From positions 57,405,817 to 57,469,816 of the forward strand of contig OZ024872.1 in the NCBI GenBank assembly GCA_964017185.1: 64,000 bases of DNA, written 5' to 3'. This document shows, piece after piece, positions 2,831-56,515 of the stretch. The stretch comes from Rugalucina vietnamica. Taxonomy: Eukaryota > Mollusca > Bivalvia > Lucinida > Lucinidae. The notes beneath the pieces are model-generated. The model had not been told where the DNA came from. It did no database searches and worked only from the letters and a program-made list of their open reading frames with translations. Position 1 is the stretch's first letter; every line of letters begins with the position of its first letter. Position numbers and translations under genes: made by a program.

Positions 2831-2956
2831 GTTTACGCATTTTAAAGTTTTTACCACTACCCTACTTCTAGCCTCTATTTCACTGATATTCAGGCATATT
2901 AAAAAATAATAACGTTATGTGTGTTTCTACTTTTTTTTTTTTTTTTACTTTGAGTT

Positions 2957-4343
2957 TATGCACCAGTCATTTGCAACCACGGCCCCCTCGGGGCCGGGAA
3001 ATAGCGGGGATATTGACTTTTCCATTTGCAAAGCCCAGGTATAAGCCCTGCACTGCTGGGACTTCTTTTCGGTAAAATCCCTGCAAAAAGCCCCTGCACT
3101 GTGGGGATTTTCCCAAAGGAAGTGTCTCGGCGTCCGGTACCGGACGAATTAGGCTAGAGTCTCCGCGTCCGGCAATGCCGGACACCGAGCCTATCCTCAC
3201 TGGAATGGCTTCGTGTCCGGCACTACATTTTTCCAACCAGTTTCTTGGTTGTAAGTAGTAAAAAGTGCAAATAATTTGATAACTATCAATACAGTTTGAA
3301 GAATAAATATTTTTTCATTCGTGTTCCGCCATTTTGAAAAGGGGATGTCACTCTTAATTTGTTTATGTCTTGTGTAAAGATGAAACTGTAGCGAATTCAA
3401 TATCATGTTGCATTTTGGTTGTTGAATAAAAAAAAAAACATATAATCTTGTTGTTGTTTTTTTTCCCAAAATTTCGGCCCAACTTGACCCCCACAAACTG
3501 GGCCCCCTGAAAAATTTCGGCCCAACATAACCCCCTACAAACTCGGCCCCCAATCTTTTGGCCCAACTTGACCTCCCCCCCACTACAAACTCAGCCCCTA
3601 ACAAACTTGGTCCCTGACAAACTCAGCCCCAAAAAATTGTAGGGACTAGGGGGTCTAGTTGGGCAGACATTTTGGGGGCCGAGTGTCAGGAGGCCAAGTT
3701 TGTAGGGAGTCAAGTTGAGAGCCGAGTTTGTCAGGGGCCGAATTTGTAGGGGGTCAGGTTTGGCAAAAATTTTGGGGGCCGTGTTGTCCAGTTACCAATT
3801 GCTCTTGTTTGCCCTTCTGACCCCTTGTTGTGATGTTTGGGTTCTGGTTCAACAACATTTTGATTCTATGTTCTATAATTAATGTTTTATTCGCTCTCAT
3901 TTGATTTTTTTCAGTGCTGCTTTAATATTTATGCATCATTTTTTCATTTTTGTAAAAGAAATTGTGTGATAAAAACAGTCTAGAAATTTCTATTCGATAT
4001 TGAAAAGATATCAAGATCGCAAAAACCGGTGACATCCTAGCTTGTATACTCCATTGTAAGGTGCATGACAACTAACGAAATATGTATGCCTGCAATCTAT
4101 TTTAAACACGCGATACTTCAAAACACGGCCAAAATTCGGATAAAACACGGTACTGTAGACAGGTAAACCCCGGTCAAAATGCCCCGCTATTTTCCCCGCT
4201 GTTTTAGCGGGAATCAAAAGCCCGGCCTTACCACGGCACTGCCGGGACACCTCGAAGGTAAAATCCTGGTACTTTAGCCCCGCTATGCCCCCGCTATTCC
4301 CGGCCCCATAGGGGCCGTGGTTGCAAATGACTAGTGCATAATA
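2957..4343. mobile_element. 1.4-kb element with inverted termini (family M)
   Basis: The ends are imperfect inverted repeats of about 50 bp. The left end reads TGCACCAGTCATTTGCAACC and then ACGGCCCC; the right end reads GGCCGTGGTTGCAAATGACT and then AGTGCA. Both sides are flanked by TA. The interior carries GC-rich palindromes such as CGTCCGGTACCGGACG near 3131 and no convincing ORF. It is a non-autonomous DNA-transposon relic with another foldback (3465-3785) inside it. Confidence 0.6.
3465..3785. repeat. Degenerate GGGCCGAGTTTGT foldback array
   Basis: The left half repeats variants of CAACTTGACCCCC and ACAAACTCGGCCCC. From about 3640 the right half repeats their reverse complements (GGGGGCCGAG, TTTGTAGGG, GTCAAGTTG). 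The whole stretch could fold on itself. It is non-coding. Confidence 0.6.
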
Positions 4344-15600: not shown

Positions 15601-16971
15601 TAGGTATCTTTAGAGTTCAACTTAAACAATTACTGTACATCTGTTTACTACTTCTGCTCATATTGGACAACTAGTACCACCATTTCTCTTCTGAAGTGTA
15701 TAGATGTACCAACTTTACATCAAAAGCATAGTTTACTATTTTTTCCTTGTCACAAACATGTGATTAACTGACATGTAAAATTCCACTTTAGATGTCTGTG
15801 ACCTTGGAAGTTCTTTTTCTAAATCTAAATCTGAATGGTTGATGTGTGGCATGTCAGATGAAATTGTTTTCTTGTTTTCTTACAGGGTGAAGCATTATTT
15901 GACTCCCTAATGAAGGCTGGTAAGGAGAGAGGGATTAAGATCCGTATTGTACAGTCTAAACCTGATAAACCACCAGTGCCTGATACAGTGGACCTCGCTA
16001 AATATGGTAGGAGCTCTATTAAGAGATTATCATATGGCAATTTTCATATCATACCCCGTATCAACCTGAGACTTCCGTATCAGCCCGAGACTCCCATATC
16101 AGCCTGAGGGCCGAAGGCCCGAGGGCTGATATGGGAGTCGAGGGCTGATACGGAAGTCGAGGGTTGATACGGGGTATGATATGAAAATTGCCATATCATG
16201 ATCTCTTTATCATATATTTTTATTGAAAAAAAAAAGTGTTTGATACAGTTCAATGCACAAAATGTTTCCCAACATAATTTCAAGTGGAAAAAAGAAAGAA
16301 TGAAAAAAAAATTCTTGTCACAAATTTTATTCAATAACATTTAACCATTAATACAGAAAATTCAAATACAAAAATTTGATTTATAAATTGAGAACAATTT
16401 ACAACGTACTATTGAATAGAACAGAGCGCTCCGAATGTGGGGGTCACGTGAGATGTGATATGAGGTTTGGGGTGTGATATGGGGGTGTGATATGAGTCCA
16501 TATCTCCCTAGGGAGATATGGATTTTGACAAATTTTGAACTGATACAGCTTTCGAGATTTGGGGTGTGATATGGGGGTGTGATATGAGTCCATATCTCCC
16601 TAGGGAGATATGGATTTTGACAAATTTTGAACTGATACAGCTTTCGAGATATGGTGTCCCGATACGTGCATAGGACTTGCGCCTGTATCGCATATGTAAA
16701 AAGAACGTATTTTACAGTAAATATATGATAATAATACAGAATTATAAACCAGTGCATTTCTGTGTGATAATTTATTTTGTATTTTTCACATAAACTAGAA
16801 ATTGTATAATAAGTCCCTGTTTGGTCAATTTATGATTGCATACTGACCTTGAGTATTCTAGTTCTGTAGTGGAAACATCATAAAGCTAAAATTATGTCTC
16901 CCCCCGACAGGGTCGGGAGACATATTGTTTTTCCCCGTGCGTCTGTCTGTCCGTCCGTCCGTCCGTCCGTC

Positions 16972-17003
<32 letters not shown>

Positions 17004-20000
17004 ACAAATCGTGTCCGCTTTATAACTTGAAAACCGTTAAAGATTTTTCAATGAAACTTGGTACACTTGTAAACCACGACGAGACGATGTGTCATGCACA
17101 AGAACCATAACTCTAGCTTGAGTATTTTTGGAGTTATTTCCCTTTGATTATTTTCAATATAATTTCGTGTCCGCTGTATAACTTGAAAACCGTTAAAGAT
17201 TTTTCAATGAAACTTGGTACACTTGTAAACCACGACGAGACGATGTGTCATGCTCAAGAACCATAACTCTAGCTTGAGTATTTTTGGAGTTATTTCCCTT
17301 TGATTATTTTCGATACAATTTCGTGTCCGCTGTATAACTTGAAAACCGTTAAAGATTTTTCAATGAAACTTGGTACACTTGTAGACCACGACAAGACGAT
17401 GTGTCATGCACAAGAACCATAACTCTGGCTTGAGTATTTTTGGAGTTATTTCCCTTTGATTATTTTCGATACAATTTCGTGTCCGCTGTATAACTTGAAG
17501 ACCTTTTAAGACTTTTCAATAAAACTTGGTACACTTATTGAGCATGATCAGACGATATGTCATGCACAAGAACCATAACTCTGGCTTGAGTATTTTATGA
17601 GTTATTTCCCTTTGATTATTTTCCATACAATTTCGTGTCCGCTTTATAACTCAAAAATCGTAAGAGTTATTTCAATGAAACTTGGTACACTTATAAAGCA
17701 CGATGAGATTACGTGTCATGCTAAAGAACCATAACTCTTGCTTGCATATCTTTGGAGTAATTTCCCTTTGATTATTTTCCATACAATTTCGTGTCCGCCC
17801 TATAACTTGAAAACCGTAAGAGAAATTTCAGTGAAACTTGGTACACTTATAAAGCATGATGAGACGATGTGTCATGCACAAGAATTATAACTCTTGCTTT
17901 CATATCTTTGGAGTTATTTCCCTTTGATTATTTTTCCATACAATTTCATGTCCACTCTATAACTTGAAAACCATAAGAAATATTTCAATGAAACTTGGTA
18001 CACTTATAAAGCACGATGAGATGATGTGTCATGCTAAAGAACCATAACTCTTGCTTGCATATTTTTGGAGTTATTTCCCTTTGATTATTTTTCATTCAAT
18101 TTCGTGTCTGCTCTATAACTAAAAAACCATTAGAGATTTTTCAATGAAACATGGTACACTTATAAAGCATGGTGCACAAGAATCATTACTCTTGCTTTCA
18201 TATCTTGGGAGTTATTTCCCTTTAATTATTTTCCAAACACTTTCGTGCCCCCTCTATAACTTGAAAACCGTAAGAGATATTTCAATGAAACTTGGTACAC
18301 TTATAAAACAGAATGACAGGATATGTGATGCACAAGAACTATAACTCTTGCTTGCATATTTTGGACATGCAGAAAGGGGGGAGACATCAGTTTTCACATA
18401 GAAAACAAATTCTAGTTGCAAATTGTTGAGAGCCTTAAAATGGTTTACATTGGAAAAATAATAATTTTACAAAAGTAAGAACTACTAATGGCAAATTCGG
18501 TCAAACTAGAAAGCCAAACATTGGACCTATCATATCAGCTATGCAAAAGGGGAGATGAAGTTAAGAAGCTTTTACAGTTTCCGTTCAAATCCCATTTATA
18601 TTCTTTGCGTATTTATATCTGTAAATATTTACGTTTCTTGATTGATCAAATAAATATGTTTAAACCAACGAAGCAACTGCATTGTTTTAGCGAAATCTTT
18701 GTTGTGTGCACAAACCCCAATTCTTGTGATCTGTCATGACAAAATTCAAATGATTTCATTTACAGCTGGTGCAGAAGTTCGGACACTAGATTTTTCCCGA
18801 CTCCAAGGATACGGTATACTGCACACCAAAATGTGGCTTATAGATAGGAAACATTCCTATGTTGGCAGTGCTAACCTTGACTGGAGATCATTTACACAGG
18901 TCAGACATTCAGAATGTGAGCCCCCTCGTGAGAAAACCAGCAATGTGATTTCGGAACAGGTCTGACACAAACCAGGCTGTACAGTCACAGAATAAAGCTA
19001 GAAGCTTGAAACTTTGCATATAAGTAGAAGAGGAATTGTACTGTGTGGAGAAAACAAAGGCGCTGATCAGCTTCCCAGTTACTGCACAGCTGATCTGCGC
19101 CTTTATTTTCGCCAATGCAGATTGTTGGTTTTCCCATTGGGCGGCTTATGTATGTCACAGTATGTTGTGATAATCATGACACCGCATGTTGAGCCACCGC
19201 ATGAGAAAACCAACAATCTGCATATGTGAAACCAAATACGCAGATCAGCTGTGCAATCAGCTGTGCAGTAATTGCACAGCTGATCAGCGCCTTTTGTTTT
19301 CACTTCACAAATAGTACAACCCCTCTTCTTCTAAAATCTAAAAATCCTGTGAGTGTACAGCTTGGTTTGTGTCGGACCTGGTCAGGCACCTAAATTGTTG
19401 GTTTTCTCATGCAAAGGCTCATATCATTACCATCAGAGTAATAGTAGCTGGAATTATCAACAATACTTTTGGATTTTCAGATAGAAGGTTATAAAATTAT
19501 GAAGTACATACATGTACAAGCAATCAGAAATGCATAGATTGATAATGATAGTGATGCTTATGAAGTCATTTGAACAGTGAAATAACATCAAATTTGGAGT
19601 GACATTCATGGTGCCATAAGGATGACTCCATGTTTATCGAAGAAAACTTAGCTTTACACATAAATGCATATTTAAAACTTTCAAAAAGTTATGTCATTGA
19701 AAATGATAAAGGCGAAGTGGTGTTCAATAGTTTTTGTCCTAGCTAGACCATGTGGAATGAATAAACCTTATTAAGCATGTGGCTAAATCTTGCAATCTTC
19801 TGTTAATGAAGAAAGTAAGGCTAAAAATAGTTATTTTATTGTTCCTATAGAAGCCATGACGAAAATTCTAAATACAAAATTATAGTTACAATTTATGTAA
19901 TTTTAACACAAAAGGTTTTTTACAGGTCAAAGAAATGGGTGCTATAATCAGTGATTGCGGCTGTATGGCTGAGGACATTGGCAAGATATTTGATGCCTAC

Positions 20001-32636: not shown

Positions 32637-32710
32637 ATTATGCACCAGTCATTTGTAACCACTGCCCCCCCCCCCCCCCCCCACCTACAGGGATAGGGGG
32701 GATAATTATG
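32637..32710 (+). mobile_element. Family M' MITE, left part of an interrupted copy
   Basis: TGCACCAGTCATTTGTAACC then a C-run of about 18, then GGATAATTATG, where the family C element begins. The right part resumes at 38083. Confidence 0.6.
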
Positions 32711-33463
32711 TCTCGCCCGAAGGGTCGGGAGACATATTGTTTTTCCCCGTGCCTCTGTCTGTCTGTCTGTCACAAATCGTGTCCGCTCTATACTCTATAA
32801 CTCGAAAACCATCAAAGATATTTCATTGAAACTTGATACACTTATAAAGCATGATAAGACGATGTGTCATGCACAAGAACCATAACTCTTGCTTTCATAT
32901 CTTTGGAGTTATTTCCCTTTGATTATTTTCCATACAATTTCGTGTCCGCTTTATAACTCGAAAACTGTCAAAGATATTTCAATGAAACTTGATACACTTA
33001 TAAAGCATGATGAGACGATGTGTCATGCTCAAGAACCATAACTCTTGCTTTCATATATTTGGAGTTATTTCCCTTTATTTTCCATACAATTGAATTTTGT
33101 GTCCGCTTTATAACTCGAAAACCGTAAGAGATATTTCAATGAAACTTGGTACACTTATAAAGCATGATGACGCAATGTGTCATGCACAAGAACCATAACT
33201 CTTGCTTTCATATCTTTAGAGTTATTTTCCTTTGATTGTTTTCCATACAATTTTGTGTCCGCTCTACAACTCAAAAATCGAAAGAGATATTTCAATGATA
33301 CTTGGTACACTTATAAAGCACAATGAGGTGATGTGTCATTCTTCAGAACCATAACTCTTGCTTGCAATCTTGGAGTCATTTCCCTTTGATTATTTTCCAT
33401 ACAATTTCGTGTCAGCACTATAACTCAAAGACCATAAGAGATTTCAATGAAACTTAGCACACT
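32711..33463 (+). mobile_element. Tandem-core element, family C, copy 2, left part
   Basis: Begins TCTCGCCCGAAGGGTCGGGA (hairpin), then a short GTCT tract and about four core units. It is cut by a long-TIR transposon at 33464 and continues at 37644. Confidence 0.8.
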
Positions 33464-33563
33464 CAACCTATGGAAACGGTGTATTAGAAAAACGGTGAAT
33501 CAACGGGGGTTAATCGGAAAAATGTGAACCATCGGGCGAGGTGTCGGTGACACATCGGGATTT
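33464..33563 (+). repeat. Left terminal inverted repeat
   Basis: Includes three GTGAnnCAnCGGG motifs at 33495, 33524 and 33547. Three more follow outside the TIR at 33926, 33947 and 33969. They are candidate transposase-binding sites. Confidence 0.9.
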
Positions 33564-34339
33564 ACAATGGAAACACGGTACGTAGTTTTAATTTTCTTTT
33601 TGTTTTGTTCCGACATGGCTGGGTGACGTTGTATGTCAAAATTCTGTTTGCTGCAGGAGCTGTAGAAATCATTATTGTTCTTTATTATGTAAACAGTTTG
33701 TAAATAAATATTCCAAGAAACGCGTGATTGTGCGCCCCATTTTAGAGGGCATGCCTTTCAAGGTCACGAAAACACATTTTCGTTTGATTTTCTAGTAAAA
33801 GAAATGGACCAAGAAGGTCACGTTGGTATTTGCAAATGAATAATAGTATACTGGAAAATTCCCACAAAAAATAAAATCTCGCCAAGCATTGCAAAGGGAT
33901 TTAATGCTAGGTGCATTTACATAATGTGAGGCATCGGGCAAGTTGTGTGAGACAACGGGGCGAATTTTGTGAGTCATTGGGCAATCAAAACTTATTGCAT
34001 TAATTTCCGATTATAAACACTCTAGAGCTATTTTTGATCAAGGTAATTTCATATTCCGTGTCATCTTCGACCCGGTAATTTCATATTCCGCATCATCTTC
34101 GACCCTTTCTTGTTGGGAAATTAAAGTGCTAGACCGACAAGTGTAAAACGCTAGCGTTCACCTGAATCATTGCCAGTGCCAGACGCACTTGTGTGAAAAT
34201 CGTTCCCAAACGGATTACCGTTTGTTGTTTAAAATATGTACATGTATATATATTCATTTTAAACTCAACAACTGTAGTAATTTTGTAAAGTCCAGTAATA
34301 TTTTGAGCAATTACATAGCGTCATCACCAAATTGCAATT

Positions 34340-35720
34340 TTAGTTCCGATGAGCCGTCCGTTCTCACTACGTCCTTACTACGTCCTAAAAAATTAAGGAC
34401 GTAGTGAGGACGTGGTACGGTCTTGTAGGACGTGGTAGGAACGTAGTAAGGACGTAGCGAGGTCTTGATGGACGCGGAGGTCTTGGTCAAATTTTGAACA
34501 TGCTCAAAAGAAACGTGGCGAGGACGGGGTGGAATTAGAACGCAGTAAGTACGTGGTAAGGACGTAGTAGGAACTTGTAGGACGTAGAAAGAACGTGGTA
34601 CAAACGTAGTGCGGTCTTCGTGGACGCGATGCAAATTTGTTGCAGACCATCAAGACCTCGCTACGCTTCTACTACGTCTTCTCTACGTCCTCGCTACGTC
34701 CAAGTTCTCGACAAGACCATACCACGCTTCTTGTACGTCCTTACCGCGTCGTAGAAGACTGCACTGCGTTCTTATCACGTCCTAGCGGTTCCTAACACGT
34801 CCTTAGTAGGTTCTTATCACGTTCACACCAGGTTCGAACTACGTCCTCCACGTTTTATTAATTTTGTTTCAATTGTCCCGTACCCTCAAGCAATTGCTTT
34901 TGCTTTTATTTAAATCATATCGAAATCGAAAACATGAACAGAGATGTACTCTTGCAACTTGCTCTCCTTCAATGACATCATGCCTTACTTGGTGCACAGG
35001 CTGCACTTGTGCTATTTCACAGAAGGAGAAATATGGGCATTACGACCGACTGCTAGCGGTGTTGAGGATAATATTTACGACTGATTAATATACCGTATTC
35101 GTTCTAATTAGCGCACAGTGCGCTTAACTTTTCAAAATATCTTAAAGTTCGGGTAACAAAATATCGTTCCAATAAGCGCACACTACGAATGTAAACAACC
35201 TATAGACTGATGAAATAACCTTGTTTAAATGGTCAATGGTGATGTCATACAAGTGTTCCAATCGTCGCGAAATATTGTTTGATCATTTGAAGATAAGTTT
35301 TAATGTGGTATGAATGTGTAAAATTGTCAATAAAATGCCAATATGCTAGTCGAGCAGTGTGCGCTTATGCGCATGTTTTTCAGAAACGACCAGGGTGTGC
35401 GCTTATTGGAGCATGTGCGCTAATTAGAACGAATACGGTATTTACAGTTAGAACGTGCTGGAAACGTAGTTCGCGCGTGGTATGAACTGCTTGGTCTTTG
35501 TGAGGACGTAGCAAGGACGTAGTAGAAACGGGATGAACTTGGTGAGCGCGTATTGAGGACGTAGTGGAAACGTGAAGGACGTAGTAAGGACGTGGTGCGG
35601 ACGTTATAAGGACGTGGCGGGGACGTAGTAAGGACGTAGTGGGAACTTAGAAATCCGAAATTGTTTCATTTTGACCCCGTCCTCGCCACGTTCTGGAATT
35701 TTTAGAACGTGGTAAGGACG
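34340..35720. repeat. GGACGTAGTA foldback array
   Basis: Degenerate 9-14 bp units of the type GGACGTAGTAAGGACGTGG run forward at about 34390-34640. They run as reverse complements (CTACGTCC) at about 34650-34860 and forward again at about 35440-35720, with inverted boundary copies at both ends. Non-coding: the overlapping 107-codon ORF is repeat-derived. Confidence 0.75.
35091..35440. mobile_element. 350-bp TA-flanked MITE
   Basis: Perfect 27-bp inverted ends: TACCGTATTCGTTCTAATTA + GCGCACA at 35091 and the complement ending at 35440, including the TA target duplication. Tc1/mariner-pogo type by TSD. Sits inside the foldback array. Confidence 0.85.
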
Positions 35721-36329
35721 TGGTGAGAACGTGGTCCAGTGTAGACGTAACATAAGTGAGAGTTACAGTTATACGCAAGCACATGACGTAGATACGTATG
35801 CGCATTACTGTAACTCGTGCTGTTTGGCCTTGTTACTCGAGTTACTTTTTGCGATCTCGCCACGGCGAGAGCGCATATATAATTGAACAGGGCTGGAATC
35901 TTGTTGTAAATCGACCACACTTCCGGTCGTACTTGATTGGACAAGGCAGCTTCGATTGGGTCACACTAAATAGCGCATGCCGGCTCGGGTATGAAAGCTC
36001 ACGTTGAATTGAGCTGTCAGAGTCTTTTCGGTCTGTGGTTATCGCCGTGAATTTATACGTGGTCATACAGTGAAATTAGTGCTGAGAGATCGCAAGCGTT
36101 TTGGAAACGCTTATACTTGTGTTACTCGGATAGTCATGTCGAAAATCCTCATTTTTCCCATGAGAAAATAAATGTCCAGTCGTGTGAACTGAGCAACAAA
36201 AGGAGACCGAACCTAAAGTTAACATCAATTAATACCGTCAGGTATGCATTGTCCCGGTATATTGTAAAGCTAATCAAACTTGGAAACCTGTCGAAATGTC
36301 ATGTTTTAAGAATCAGTTATTATTATTGA

Positions 36330-36344
36330 TATTGTTATTATTAC

Positions 36345-36408
<64 letters not shown>
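36330..36408. repeat. ATT trinucleotide microsatellite
   Basis: Nearly pure (ATT)n of about 75 bp. On the minus strand it is the AAT tail of the adjacent SINE. Confidence 0.9.
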
Positions 36409-36417
36409 GATTAAGTT

Positions 36418-36657
36418 TTACGTGCCTTAAAAGCCAATTATTTCACTCATTAACAAATCAGTATGTGGGGCGAAAATAGGAGTACTCCAGGAAAAAGCAC
36501 CTGACACACCTGCAAGCAGAACTTGACTTGTCCCACATGTGACCCGTGCGGGGCTCGAACCCTACACGGCGCTCGTGGGGATCGAACCCAGGACCTCTCG
36601 CTCCAGAGTGACAGTCCGACGCTCTACCGCTTCAGCTACCGCGCTCTACTAGCGGGG
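36418..36657 (-). mobile_element. SINE with central domain and a doubled B box
   Basis: The minus-strand head GAGCGCGGTAGCTGAAGCGG (A box) is followed by GGTTCGATCCCC and, 30 bp on, GGTTCGAGCCCC. The central domain GTGGGGCGAAAATAGGAGTA and an AAT-repeat tail follow. tRNA-derived. Confidence 0.75.
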
Positions 36658-37543
36658 GCTGTGACTGGTATCTTTGTCCCTAGATCTCACAAGAAACGTT
36701 AAGCAATCATCTGGCACCTCAGCGGTAGACATCAGAGGGGACATTTCAGGCCCTGATAATTTTAGGAAAGAAGCTATCCCAATAGATACTGTTCCATGTT
36801 ATTTCCAAAGATTGGACCTGCGTTTACTGTTATAATTTTCCCAGTCTTCAAATCGGCAACGGAAGAAATTTAAGAATTGGAGACAGTATCTTTTCCAATT
36901 ATTTCTTACACGTTTTCATTTGCTTCAGCTTCATTTAACCAGCGAAAAAAAAACTATATGACGGACGCTGCGGACGAGGAACGTCCGAGTTCTCATCACT
37001 GCCGGTGATTATCGTGTTTATAGCATCCGTCATTGGGATAGATATGATCCCACTCAAACTAAAAGTTAAAAAACAACAATCATGTACTGTCTAGAATGAA
37101 GAAAATAAAGTTTTATTCCATCAAAATTTGGTTGCTCCCCGGCGACACACACAACTTGCCCGGAGACTCACCAAATAATCAATCACCCGGCTGAATCTCG
37201 ATTTTCCCAGTCTTTTTTACAAATTTTCTGAAGGTTGATAATCAGGAGCTTACTTTTCTATATTCACCAATCTGAATTAAGGTTGTTTACATTCGTAATT
37301 CGATGTAAGCACAAAAAATAAACAAAAAATACAACCGAAAGTCAACTGAAATGTTTGAGTAGTAAAATGGGGCGCACTGTGGCGATTAAACAAAATACAT
37401 TTTCAACAATTTTAGGGTTTCCGGGGCTGCATCAAAGACCCTTACAGCTCCTGCAAGTGTTCGATTTGTTTTTATTTACTGCAGTATTTTTAGCTTTCGC
37501 TTCAAAATAGAAGTAAACAAACAACATACCTTTTATCTAGTGC

Positions 37544-37643
37544 AAATCCCGATGTGTCACCGACACCTCGCCCGATGGTTCACATTTTTCCGATTAACCC
37601 CCGTTGATTCACCGTTTTTCTAATACACCGTTTCCATAGGTTG
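37544..37643 (-). repeat. Right terminal inverted repeat
   Basis: Exact inverse of 33464-33563, ending CCATAGGTTG, followed by the ACACT duplication. Confidence 0.9.
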
Positions 37644-38082
37644 ACACTTATAAAGCACAATGAGACAATGTGTCATGCACAAGAATTATAACCGTTGCTT
37701 GTGTAATTTTGGGAGTTATTTCCCTTTGATTATTTTCCATATAATTTCTTGTCCGCCCTATAACTAAAAAAGGATAAGAGATTTTTTAATGAAACTTGGA
37801 ACACTTATAAAGCACAATGAGATAATGTGTCATTCACAAGAATTATAACTCTTGCATGTGTATTTTTTGAGTTATTTCCCTTTGATTATTTTCTATACAA
37901 TTTCGTGTCTGCTCTATAACAAAAAAAAAAGCGTAAGAGATATTTCAATGAAACCTGATACACTTATAAAACAAAATGACAGGATATTTGATGCACAAGA
38001 ACTATAACTCTTGCTTGCATATTTTGGACATGCACTTAGAAAGGGGGGAGACATCAGTTTTCACATAGAAAACAAATTCTAG
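37644..38082 (+). mobile_element. Tandem-core element, family C, copy 2, right part
   Basis: Core units resume in the same phase (ACACTTATAAAGCAC) and the element closes GGGGGGAGACATCAG ... ATTCTAG as in copy 1. Confidence 0.8.
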
Positions 38083-38135
38083 TGACTTTTTACTTTTCAG
38101 TGCCCCACTGAAAGCCATGATGGGGCTGCCTGATA
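38083..38135 (+). mobile_element. Family M' MITE, continuation after the insertion
   Basis: GACTTTTTACTTTTCAGTGC followed by CCCACTGAAAGCC matches the reverse complement of 125-172. Positions 38136-38310 are unassigned. Confidence 0.55.
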
Positions 38136-56106: not shown

Positions 56107-56137
<31 letters not shown>

Positions 56138-56515
56138 TGATTCAGTTTTACATCCCTTTCAAGCTTTTTCACTCATATCGAGACGAATCAATCGGTAGGT
56201 GGGGCGAAAACCGGAGTACCCGGGGAAAAACCACCTGACACACCCGCAAGCAGAACTTGGCTTGTCCCACATGTGACTCATGCCCCGAGCGAGGCGCGAA
56301 CCCACAGCGGTGAGATGATCAAATGATTAAGAGCATTGAAGTCAGCGACCTTAACCACTCGGCCACGGGGGCCGCCTTTTTTACCAAATTTTAAAATTCT
56401 AGGTTAAGTAGTTCCTGAGAAATCTTTGACACAAAAAAAGTTTACAGACAGACAAACAAACAGACGGAAAAAGCAAAAACTATATACCCCCTAATACTTC
56501 GTATGCCGGGGGTAT
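55285..56515 (-). mobile_element. Tandem-core element, family F
   Basis: About two long units (GACAGATGGGAAAAGAAACA; ACCACAGAATCGTAATCTTG; GAGCTGATATGATGG), bounded by GCTCACATACCCCCGGCGG at the left and CTTCGTATGCCGGGGGTATA at the right, with a short CAGACAGACAAACAAACAGA microsatellite. Contains a SINE insertion. Confidence 0.65.
56110..56382 (-). mobile_element. SINE with central domain, inserted in family F
   Basis: The minus-strand head GGCGGCCCCCGTGGCCGAGT carries the A box, with B box GGGTTCGCGCC. Spacing between boxes is long, as in tRNA-Ser/Leu. Central domain GTGGGGCGAAAACCGGAGTA (plus strand near 56199). Tail of about 30 A's. The uninserted site is visible in the neighbouring F unit near 55770-55785. 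Confidence 0.85.

Follow-up and report, generated by a model that had tools for sequence, protein, structure and literature searches.

Repeats that lie one inside another are tempting to read as a local stack in which the innermost layer is the youngest, and the question raised here is whether this reading holds for a nest of transposable elements in the lucinid bivalve Rugalucina vietnamica. The nest (positions 32,637–38,135) lies in a window, that is, the whole 64,000-nucleotide stretch analysed (C4:57405817-57469816, contig OZ024872.1 in the 1.09-Gb, 47-contig assembly GCA_964017185.1). From the outside inwards it comprises an old inverted-repeat element (M'), a tandem-core element (C), a transposon with long terminal inverted repeats (TIRs; hereafter Tn), a foldback element (F) and a miniature inverted-repeat transposable element (MITE) flanked by TA. 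A first-pass annotation, made from the letters alone, was right that the nest exists close to these positions, that its families are distinct and that one contains the next in this order; its inventory of five layers was incomplete, as it overlooked a tRNA-derived short interspersed element (SINE) in Tn. It also held the order of insertions to be fixed by the boundaries, which is borne out for M', then C, then Tn and not for F and the MITE, both of which are passengers of Tn and did not insert here. We are highly confident that the locus was built in two places: M', C and Tn came together here in that order, and F and the MITE were loaded elsewhere, in a mobile, recently multiplied Tn lineage whose unit also includes the SINE, and were delivered by a shrunken, loaded copy of Tn. 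(Contig labels C1, C2, C3 and C4 denote assembly contigs; element C and copy C2 are Helentron copies in the window.)

Tn, the carrier in this account, has the following parts in the window.

33464–37643, + strand: Tn, a 4,180-bp non-autonomous transposon with long TIRs
33459–33463, + strand: left target site duplication of Tn, ACACT (5 bp)
37644–37648, + strand: right target site duplication of Tn, ACACT (5 bp)
33464–33563, + strand: outer 100 bp of the left TIR, identical to the right TIR, with weaker similarity to ~600 bp
37544–37643, − strand: outer 100 bp of the right TIR, identical to the left TIR
34359–34362, no strand: internal-deletion junction, a 4-bp CGTT overlap at which ~1.94 kb of the 6.1-kb Tn copies is absent, together with the outer left end of F

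As first annotated, C is split by Tn at 33464–37643; Tn sits within one 156-bp core monomer of C, and this monomer is restored when Tn and one ACACT are removed. Past the first 126 bp, TIR similarity is patchy to ~600 bp (local score 102 versus a best of 88 in 200 shuffles), and in the window copy (33464–34064 and 37044–37643) the 500 bp inside the outer TIR keep only patches in register (for example, TGCAGGAGCTGTA and GTGCGCCCCATTTTA). Exact 24-mers of the two Tn ends occur 235 and 233 times in the genome (468 in total; reversed control, 0), which by end count amounts to ~230 copies. Of 542 candidates in a genome search with the left 837 bp, 40 were scored, and the 40 long matches are 99–100% identical over 837 bp (831 in one); two short rows of this search are the opposite TIR. 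Twenty loci (L017–L036) were fetched from the best 40 matches to this left end, and being chosen by similarity they are close relatives of the window copy. Both Tn ends are present in 18 of the 20, and in each of these complete copies the outer 100 bp of the left and right TIRs are 99–100% identical. In 14 of the 18, and in the window copy, Tn is bounded by an exact 5-bp duplication, and the 14 sequences differ from one another; the other four are L019 and L033 (AT-rich and ambiguous), L030 (four of the 5 bp match) and L036 (flanks unmatched). Tn thus shows the TIRs and fixed-length duplication of DDE cut-and-paste elements; given these traits and the lack of visible coding (the longest open reading frame in the four Tn loci read, L029, L030, L032 and L033, is 154 aa), it was presumably moved by a DDE-type transposase supplied in trans. 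A complete list of Tn ends was available for contigs C1, C2 and C3 up to 60.5 Mb, and the counts below that place F-empty, MITE-filled, virgin and footprint sites relative to Tn refer to that part of the genome.

The first passenger is F.

34359–35752, + strand: F, a foldback element built from alternately oriented 11-bp repeats of the GGACGTAGT type, truncated at its left end and holding the MITE
35753–35755, + strand: TAA, the right copy of the F target duplication; the left copy was lost to the deletion here and is present in longer Tn copies

The array that had been placed at 34340–35720 is real, with 42 of the 104 window matches to a degenerate GGACGTAGT 9-mer (at most one mismatch) falling in 34340–35740, and F has the long inverted tandem-repeat arms around a loop that mark foldback elements. 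Its edges had to be moved. Relative to the 6.1-kb copies L019, L027 and L033, the window Tn is without ~1.94 kb between Tn position 899 and the left end of F, so that the left edge of the array, at the CGTT junction, is a deletion scar and no insertion boundary; the right end is 35752, followed by TAA. A duplication at the array edges of the window copy is no better than in shuffles (1,753 and 842 of 2,000 as good). In longer Tn copies the complete element reads GAGTTAA, then F from TGTTACGTCTACAC to GTGTAGACGTAACA, then TAAGTGAG.

F was present wholly or partly in 18 of the 20 fetched Tn loci when these were tested layer by layer; L020 retains only its right tip, and L032 is without F in the stretch fetched. 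Seven further loci (L065–L071) were fetched from F matches absent from the Tn list. Three of them (L065–L067) are Tn, and in the other four (L068–L071) F is present and the 3.1–3.4 kb read contains no Tn sequence, which rules out F as a part of Tn only. F is also found as a free-standing mobile element with a target duplication, although this duplication is less clear around free F than in Tn: the three free copies with both outer ends read are flanked by TAA/TAA (L069) or TTTA/TAAA (L068 and L070). At L071 (G000:C3:56569300-56572500), two F elements lie in tandem and have one TAA in common at their junction. A 25-mer of the F-empty site (at most two mismatches) was found at 54 places in the genome (control, 0), 12 of them within reach of the Tn list: 9 between paired Tn ends and 3 on the inner side of a lone end. 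The end pairs with F-empty places span 2.2–14.3 kb, and longer copies of up to 14.5 kb exist. Filled and empty sites together establish F as an insertion in Tn at TAA, in the mobile Tn lineage. Three F-empty rows begin GCTGACACG, the form beside F in all seven loci showing that junction, and the remaining rows read GCCGACACG or another variant; by these letters, F may have entered the GCT sublineage of Tn.

Within the loop of F lies the second passenger.

35093–35438, + strand: core of the TA MITE, 346 bp, with TIRs beginning CCGTATTCGTTCTAATTAGCGC; TA at 35091–35092 and 35439–35440

The earlier placement of this MITE at 35091–35440 was accurate. Tc1/mariner-type TA MITEs are marked by a TA duplication, perfect short TIRs and footprints of a few bases between two TAs, and the element in F resembles them in each respect: its TIRs are perfect over 27–28 bp, TA stands on both sides and short excision footprints between TAs occur (see below). 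A Tc1/mariner-type enzyme probably moved it. At the same F site, 13 of the 20 fetched Tn loci hold the intact MITE in Tn orientation, one a partial copy (L030), one an inverted copy (L036) and three a footprint (L025, L034 and L035); in two the site is missing (L020 and L032). Another 20 loci, taken from the 40 best MITE matches, all carry it in Tn at this same site, and on contig C1, unselected for cargo, an exact MITE end lies within 14 of 24 Tn end pairs. The family is wider than this (its end occurs 490 and 484 times in the genome), and 54 of the 69 MITE places on contig C1 are outside Tn. A 1.85-kb element with MITE TIRs was also read (L072, G000:C1:104300-106180); by eye, its 217-aa open reading frame is retroelement-like and no transposase is seen.

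Filled and unfilled sites can be told apart across the genome. MITE-filled F sites number 71 (control, 0), and the unfilled pattern, GACTGATTAAT followed by TTACAGTTAGAAC with 0–16 bases between, occurs at 195 places (control, 0). Among the 100 of these that were listed, 87 are virgin-like and 13 hold remnants (classes counted by hand), with the footprints TACCGGTA in five, TACGGTA in four, TACCGGGTA in two, GGTA with one TA lost in one and TACATGTA in one. The common virgin site, GATTAATATATTTACAG, is exactly what remains of the window sequence when the MITE core and one TA are taken out; a shorter virgin form, GATTAATATTTACAG, accounts for 2 of the 100. All 17 filled sites are associated with Tn, 14 being enclosed by an end pair and 3 lying on the inner side of a lone end. 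Of the 36 virgin sites, 35 fall outside Tn (Fisher p 6e-13), and all 5 footprints fall within or next to Tn (Fisher p 8e-6). Read together, these three distributions mean that F at first existed free and without the MITE, that the MITE was then acquired by F within Tn, and that several copies later lost it by excision. Entry of the MITE into free F before F joined Tn was considered and rejected: on contigs C1, C2 and C3 to 60.5 Mb, none of the 17 testable MITE-filled F copies is outside Tn, and one Tn copy has a virgin F.

The layer missed by the first-pass annotation lies to the right of F.

~36317–36650, − strand: tRNA-derived SINE with a (TAA)n tail and a tRNA-Asp-like head at 36568–36646; outer limits approximate

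Its head is called tRNA-Asp by ARAGORN and its body is common to other copies in the window; it was found in 19 of the 20 fetched Tn loci, the right part of L032 not having been reached. By eye the head looks chimeric, with the tRNA-Asp-like part upstream of a remnant of the head type at 56110–56303, relative to which it seems to have been replaced. That most of the 20 fetched Tn copies contain F, the MITE and the SINE might also be explained if all three were native parts of Tn that never inserted, and for the SINE such a reading may still apply. For the set as a whole we consider it very unlikely, as it is at odds with the 54 F-empty places (all 12 testable ones being in or beside Tn), with F copies that have virgin MITE sites outside Tn and with the many MITE places on contig C1 outside Tn.

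Divergence between Tn copies bears on when the passengers arrived. The set comprised 24 copies (L017–L036, L065–L067 and the window copy), 16–23 of them usable per layer, and median pairwise differences range over 0.45–1.22% across layers, compared with 17.3% between C and copy C2: 0.45% in the left end, 0.80 and 0.65% in the F arms, 0.77% in the loop, 1.14% in the MITE, 1.06% in the middle, 0.87% in the SINE body, and 1.22 and 0.59% in the right parts. Given that the inner layers diverge like Tn itself, they came to this locus inside Tn, having been amplified with it, and the expectation of the first-pass annotation that inner layers would be younger fails as a local chronology. That every layer inserted here in turn, innermost last, is in our judgement very improbable. 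In its favour, the layers are truly contained in one another, and each of C, F and the MITE also occurs outside this nest (for all three there are copies that lack the inner or the outer layer; uninterrupted copies were among the checks that the annotation had proposed); yet the identical placement of F and the MITE in other Tn copies would need many identical independent insertions, and insertion points shared across Tn copies at unrelated loci, the pattern that contradicts a local stack, are what is observed. The annotation itself had named such a pattern, inner sequences always accompanying outer ones as a single composite, as contrary to its view; for the inner half of the nest this is largely the case, as F and the MITE recur with Tn. 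Copying of the nest as one segment (that is, a segmental duplication or an assembly artefact, with no transposition) has next to no chance of being correct, for even though the scored copies are 99–100% identical, different 5-bp duplications lie directly outside the TIRs and are locus-specific in 14 of the 18 complete copies.

Construction in two places leaves the outer half of the nest to be assembled at the locus itself, from the following parts.

32641–32707, + strand: left part of M', its TIR TGCACCAGTCATTTGTAACC... after TA (32639–32640), up to the C insertion point; matches the M copies at 1–230 and 2956–4342
38083–38105, + strand: right part of M', ~23 bp aligning with the M copy at 1–230 once C is left out
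32708–33463, + strand: 5' part of C, a Pearl/HINE-type non-autonomous Helentron, with subterminal inverted repeat (subTIR), inverted repeat, GTCT microsatellite and 4.3 copies of the 156-bp core repeat
37644–38082, + strand: 3' part of C, with 2.4 core repeats (the first 5 bp being the Tn duplication), 3' subTIR, palindrome GTTTTC-ACATA-GAAAAC and end CTAG
16894–18415, + strand: copy C2, a second copy of C, uninterrupted and without Tn

The M' end TGCACCAGTCATTTGTAACC recurs in the window at 205–230, 2956–2987 and 4311–4342, and a 19-mer of it has four window matches (at most three mismatches) against a shuffle mean of 0.04. The second and third of these places belong to a 1.39-kb TA-flanked element (2956–4342) with the M end on both sides. 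When the flanks of C are joined (the join kept 4 bases of C), they align to the M copy at 1–230 over 26 of 26 bases, and a second stretch spanning the join gives 46 identities in 59 columns, 11 of them gap columns; the M copy shows small gaps relative to M' exactly at the C insertion point. C therefore most likely inserted into M', to judge from these alignments, and the earlier view of M' as split by C stands. The label 'MITE' for M' is unproven and the boundary at 38135 arbitrary, because a search of 5 kb did not turn up the right TIR (best score 20/64 versus a null mean of 21.6 and maximum of 32).

The ends of C at 32708 and 38082 agree with those of copy C2, which confirms the right end as first annotated and shifts the left from 32711; between the two copies, 17.3% of 1,162 aligned bases are different, and the alignment contains 388 gap columns. 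On its structural traits, C is a Pearl/HINE-type non-autonomous Helentron: subTIRs of the 11–15 bp seen at both ends of HINEs match at 12/12 in copy C2 and 10/11 in the window copy of C, an inverted repeat lies beside the 5' subTIR, a microsatellite, tandem core and 3' palindrome are present, and T stands on both sides of C and of C2 with no visible target duplication. The exact C core pattern had no match in the genome contigs, exact patterns for C, the MITE and the array had none in viral contigs, and an Rfam scan gave no match at gathering.

Two orders of events emerge, M' before C before Tn at the locus, and F before the MITE before its excisions in the Tn lineage, and together they give the following course. 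C most likely inserted between Ts of M', probably by a rolling-circle mode (taken here from the traits of its family), leaving no visible duplication. Elsewhere, F inserted into Tn at TAA, and the TA MITE next into the loop of F, still in the mobile Tn lineage; Tn copies multiplied with this cargo, some shrinking by internal deletion and others losing the MITE by excision. One shrunken, loaded copy later landed, presumably by cut and paste, in a 156-bp repeat of C at the window locus, duplicating ACACT. The insertions of C, Tn, F and the MITE follow from filled and empty sites, and the joint amplification, the footprints and the internal deletion are likewise shown by the sequences.

Several observations weigh against this scenario or parts of it. 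Divergence and cargo frequency from the 20 loci are biased towards close relatives of the window copy. The 5-bp flanks mismatch in L036 and match at only 4 of 5 in L030. A Pfam search of 10 Tn open reading frames in the window gave nothing above the cut-off, and none of the sequences read showed a transposase for Tn, F or the MITE. The alignment that places C in M' is short and gapped on the right side (~23 bp), the alignable M' sequence amounting to only ~67 + 23 bp. The SINE target duplication is unconvincing (80 of 2,000 shuffles as good), and the fetched loci contain no SINE-free site, so that insertion of the SINE into Tn is unproven. At C3:56178530-56182637, a pair of Tn ends encloses an F whose MITE site is virgin, which could be either a pre-MITE stage or a clean loss. 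Finally, the MITE of L036 (G000:C6:33249500-33257000; 344 bp, 96% identical) occupies the usual F site in inverted orientation and has no leftover footprint beside it, a state poorly explained both by simple re-insertion into a footprint and by plain inversion.

Every layer is a known kind of element, Tn being assigned to no superfamily. Pearl and Cg_HINE are non-autonomous Helentrons of bivalves, and C resembles them (PMC7492417 and PMC4067079) in its 11–12 bp subTIR with complementary 5' inverted repeat, GTCY-type microsatellite, ~160-bp tandem core, 3' palindrome and T-rich target without visible duplication. It departs from them in that the window copy has just one T on its right side, and from mite HINEs in that its 3' subTIR ends 28 nt from the 3' end rather than 38–60; its sequence was matched to no database family. 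F is like the foldback elements of PMC4079207 (Tetris, with FB and Galileo named there) in its long inverted tandem-repeat arms and in having no coding seen, and unlike Tetris in its 11-bp units arranged in alternating blocks and its TAA duplication in Tn versus 8–10 bp; TAA likewise differs from the 8–10 bp duplication of Mutator-type elements. Tn resembles long-TIR non-autonomous DNA transposons in its TIRs, fixed-length duplication, many copies and internal-deletion variants; its TIR start, CAACCTATGG, and 5-bp duplication were assigned to no superfamily in this analysis. The SINE layer has the tRNA-like head, dispersed body and simple-repeat tail of tRNA-derived SINEs.

More generally, an outer layer that is itself mobile can acquire its cargo elsewhere and bring it in as one piece, as the filled sites, empty sites and footprints demonstrate here; the inner layers then predate its arrival, and in this nest inner does not mean later. 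The Tn family, with 468 exact ends, 40 scored copies 99–100% alike and filled, empty and excised states, could be used to date the insertion and excision of several families in parallel. A bolder proposal, which we put forward tentatively and consider rather unlikely, is that Tn represents an undescribed, recently active long-TIR lineage (with CAACCTATGG ends and a 5-bp duplication) that serves as a landing platform, accepting and re-exporting other elements, such that F and the enclosed MITE were spread by a vehicle of another family and the MITE was given repeated chances to leave, and perhaps be replaced in, the same TA (as at L036).

Beyond the nest, the window looks animal-like, with host-like coding pieces that include exons of the phospholipase-D family and a nanos zinc finger, and a retroelement piece at 1165–2805 contains an RVT_1 reverse transcriptase domain (E 2.9e-34).

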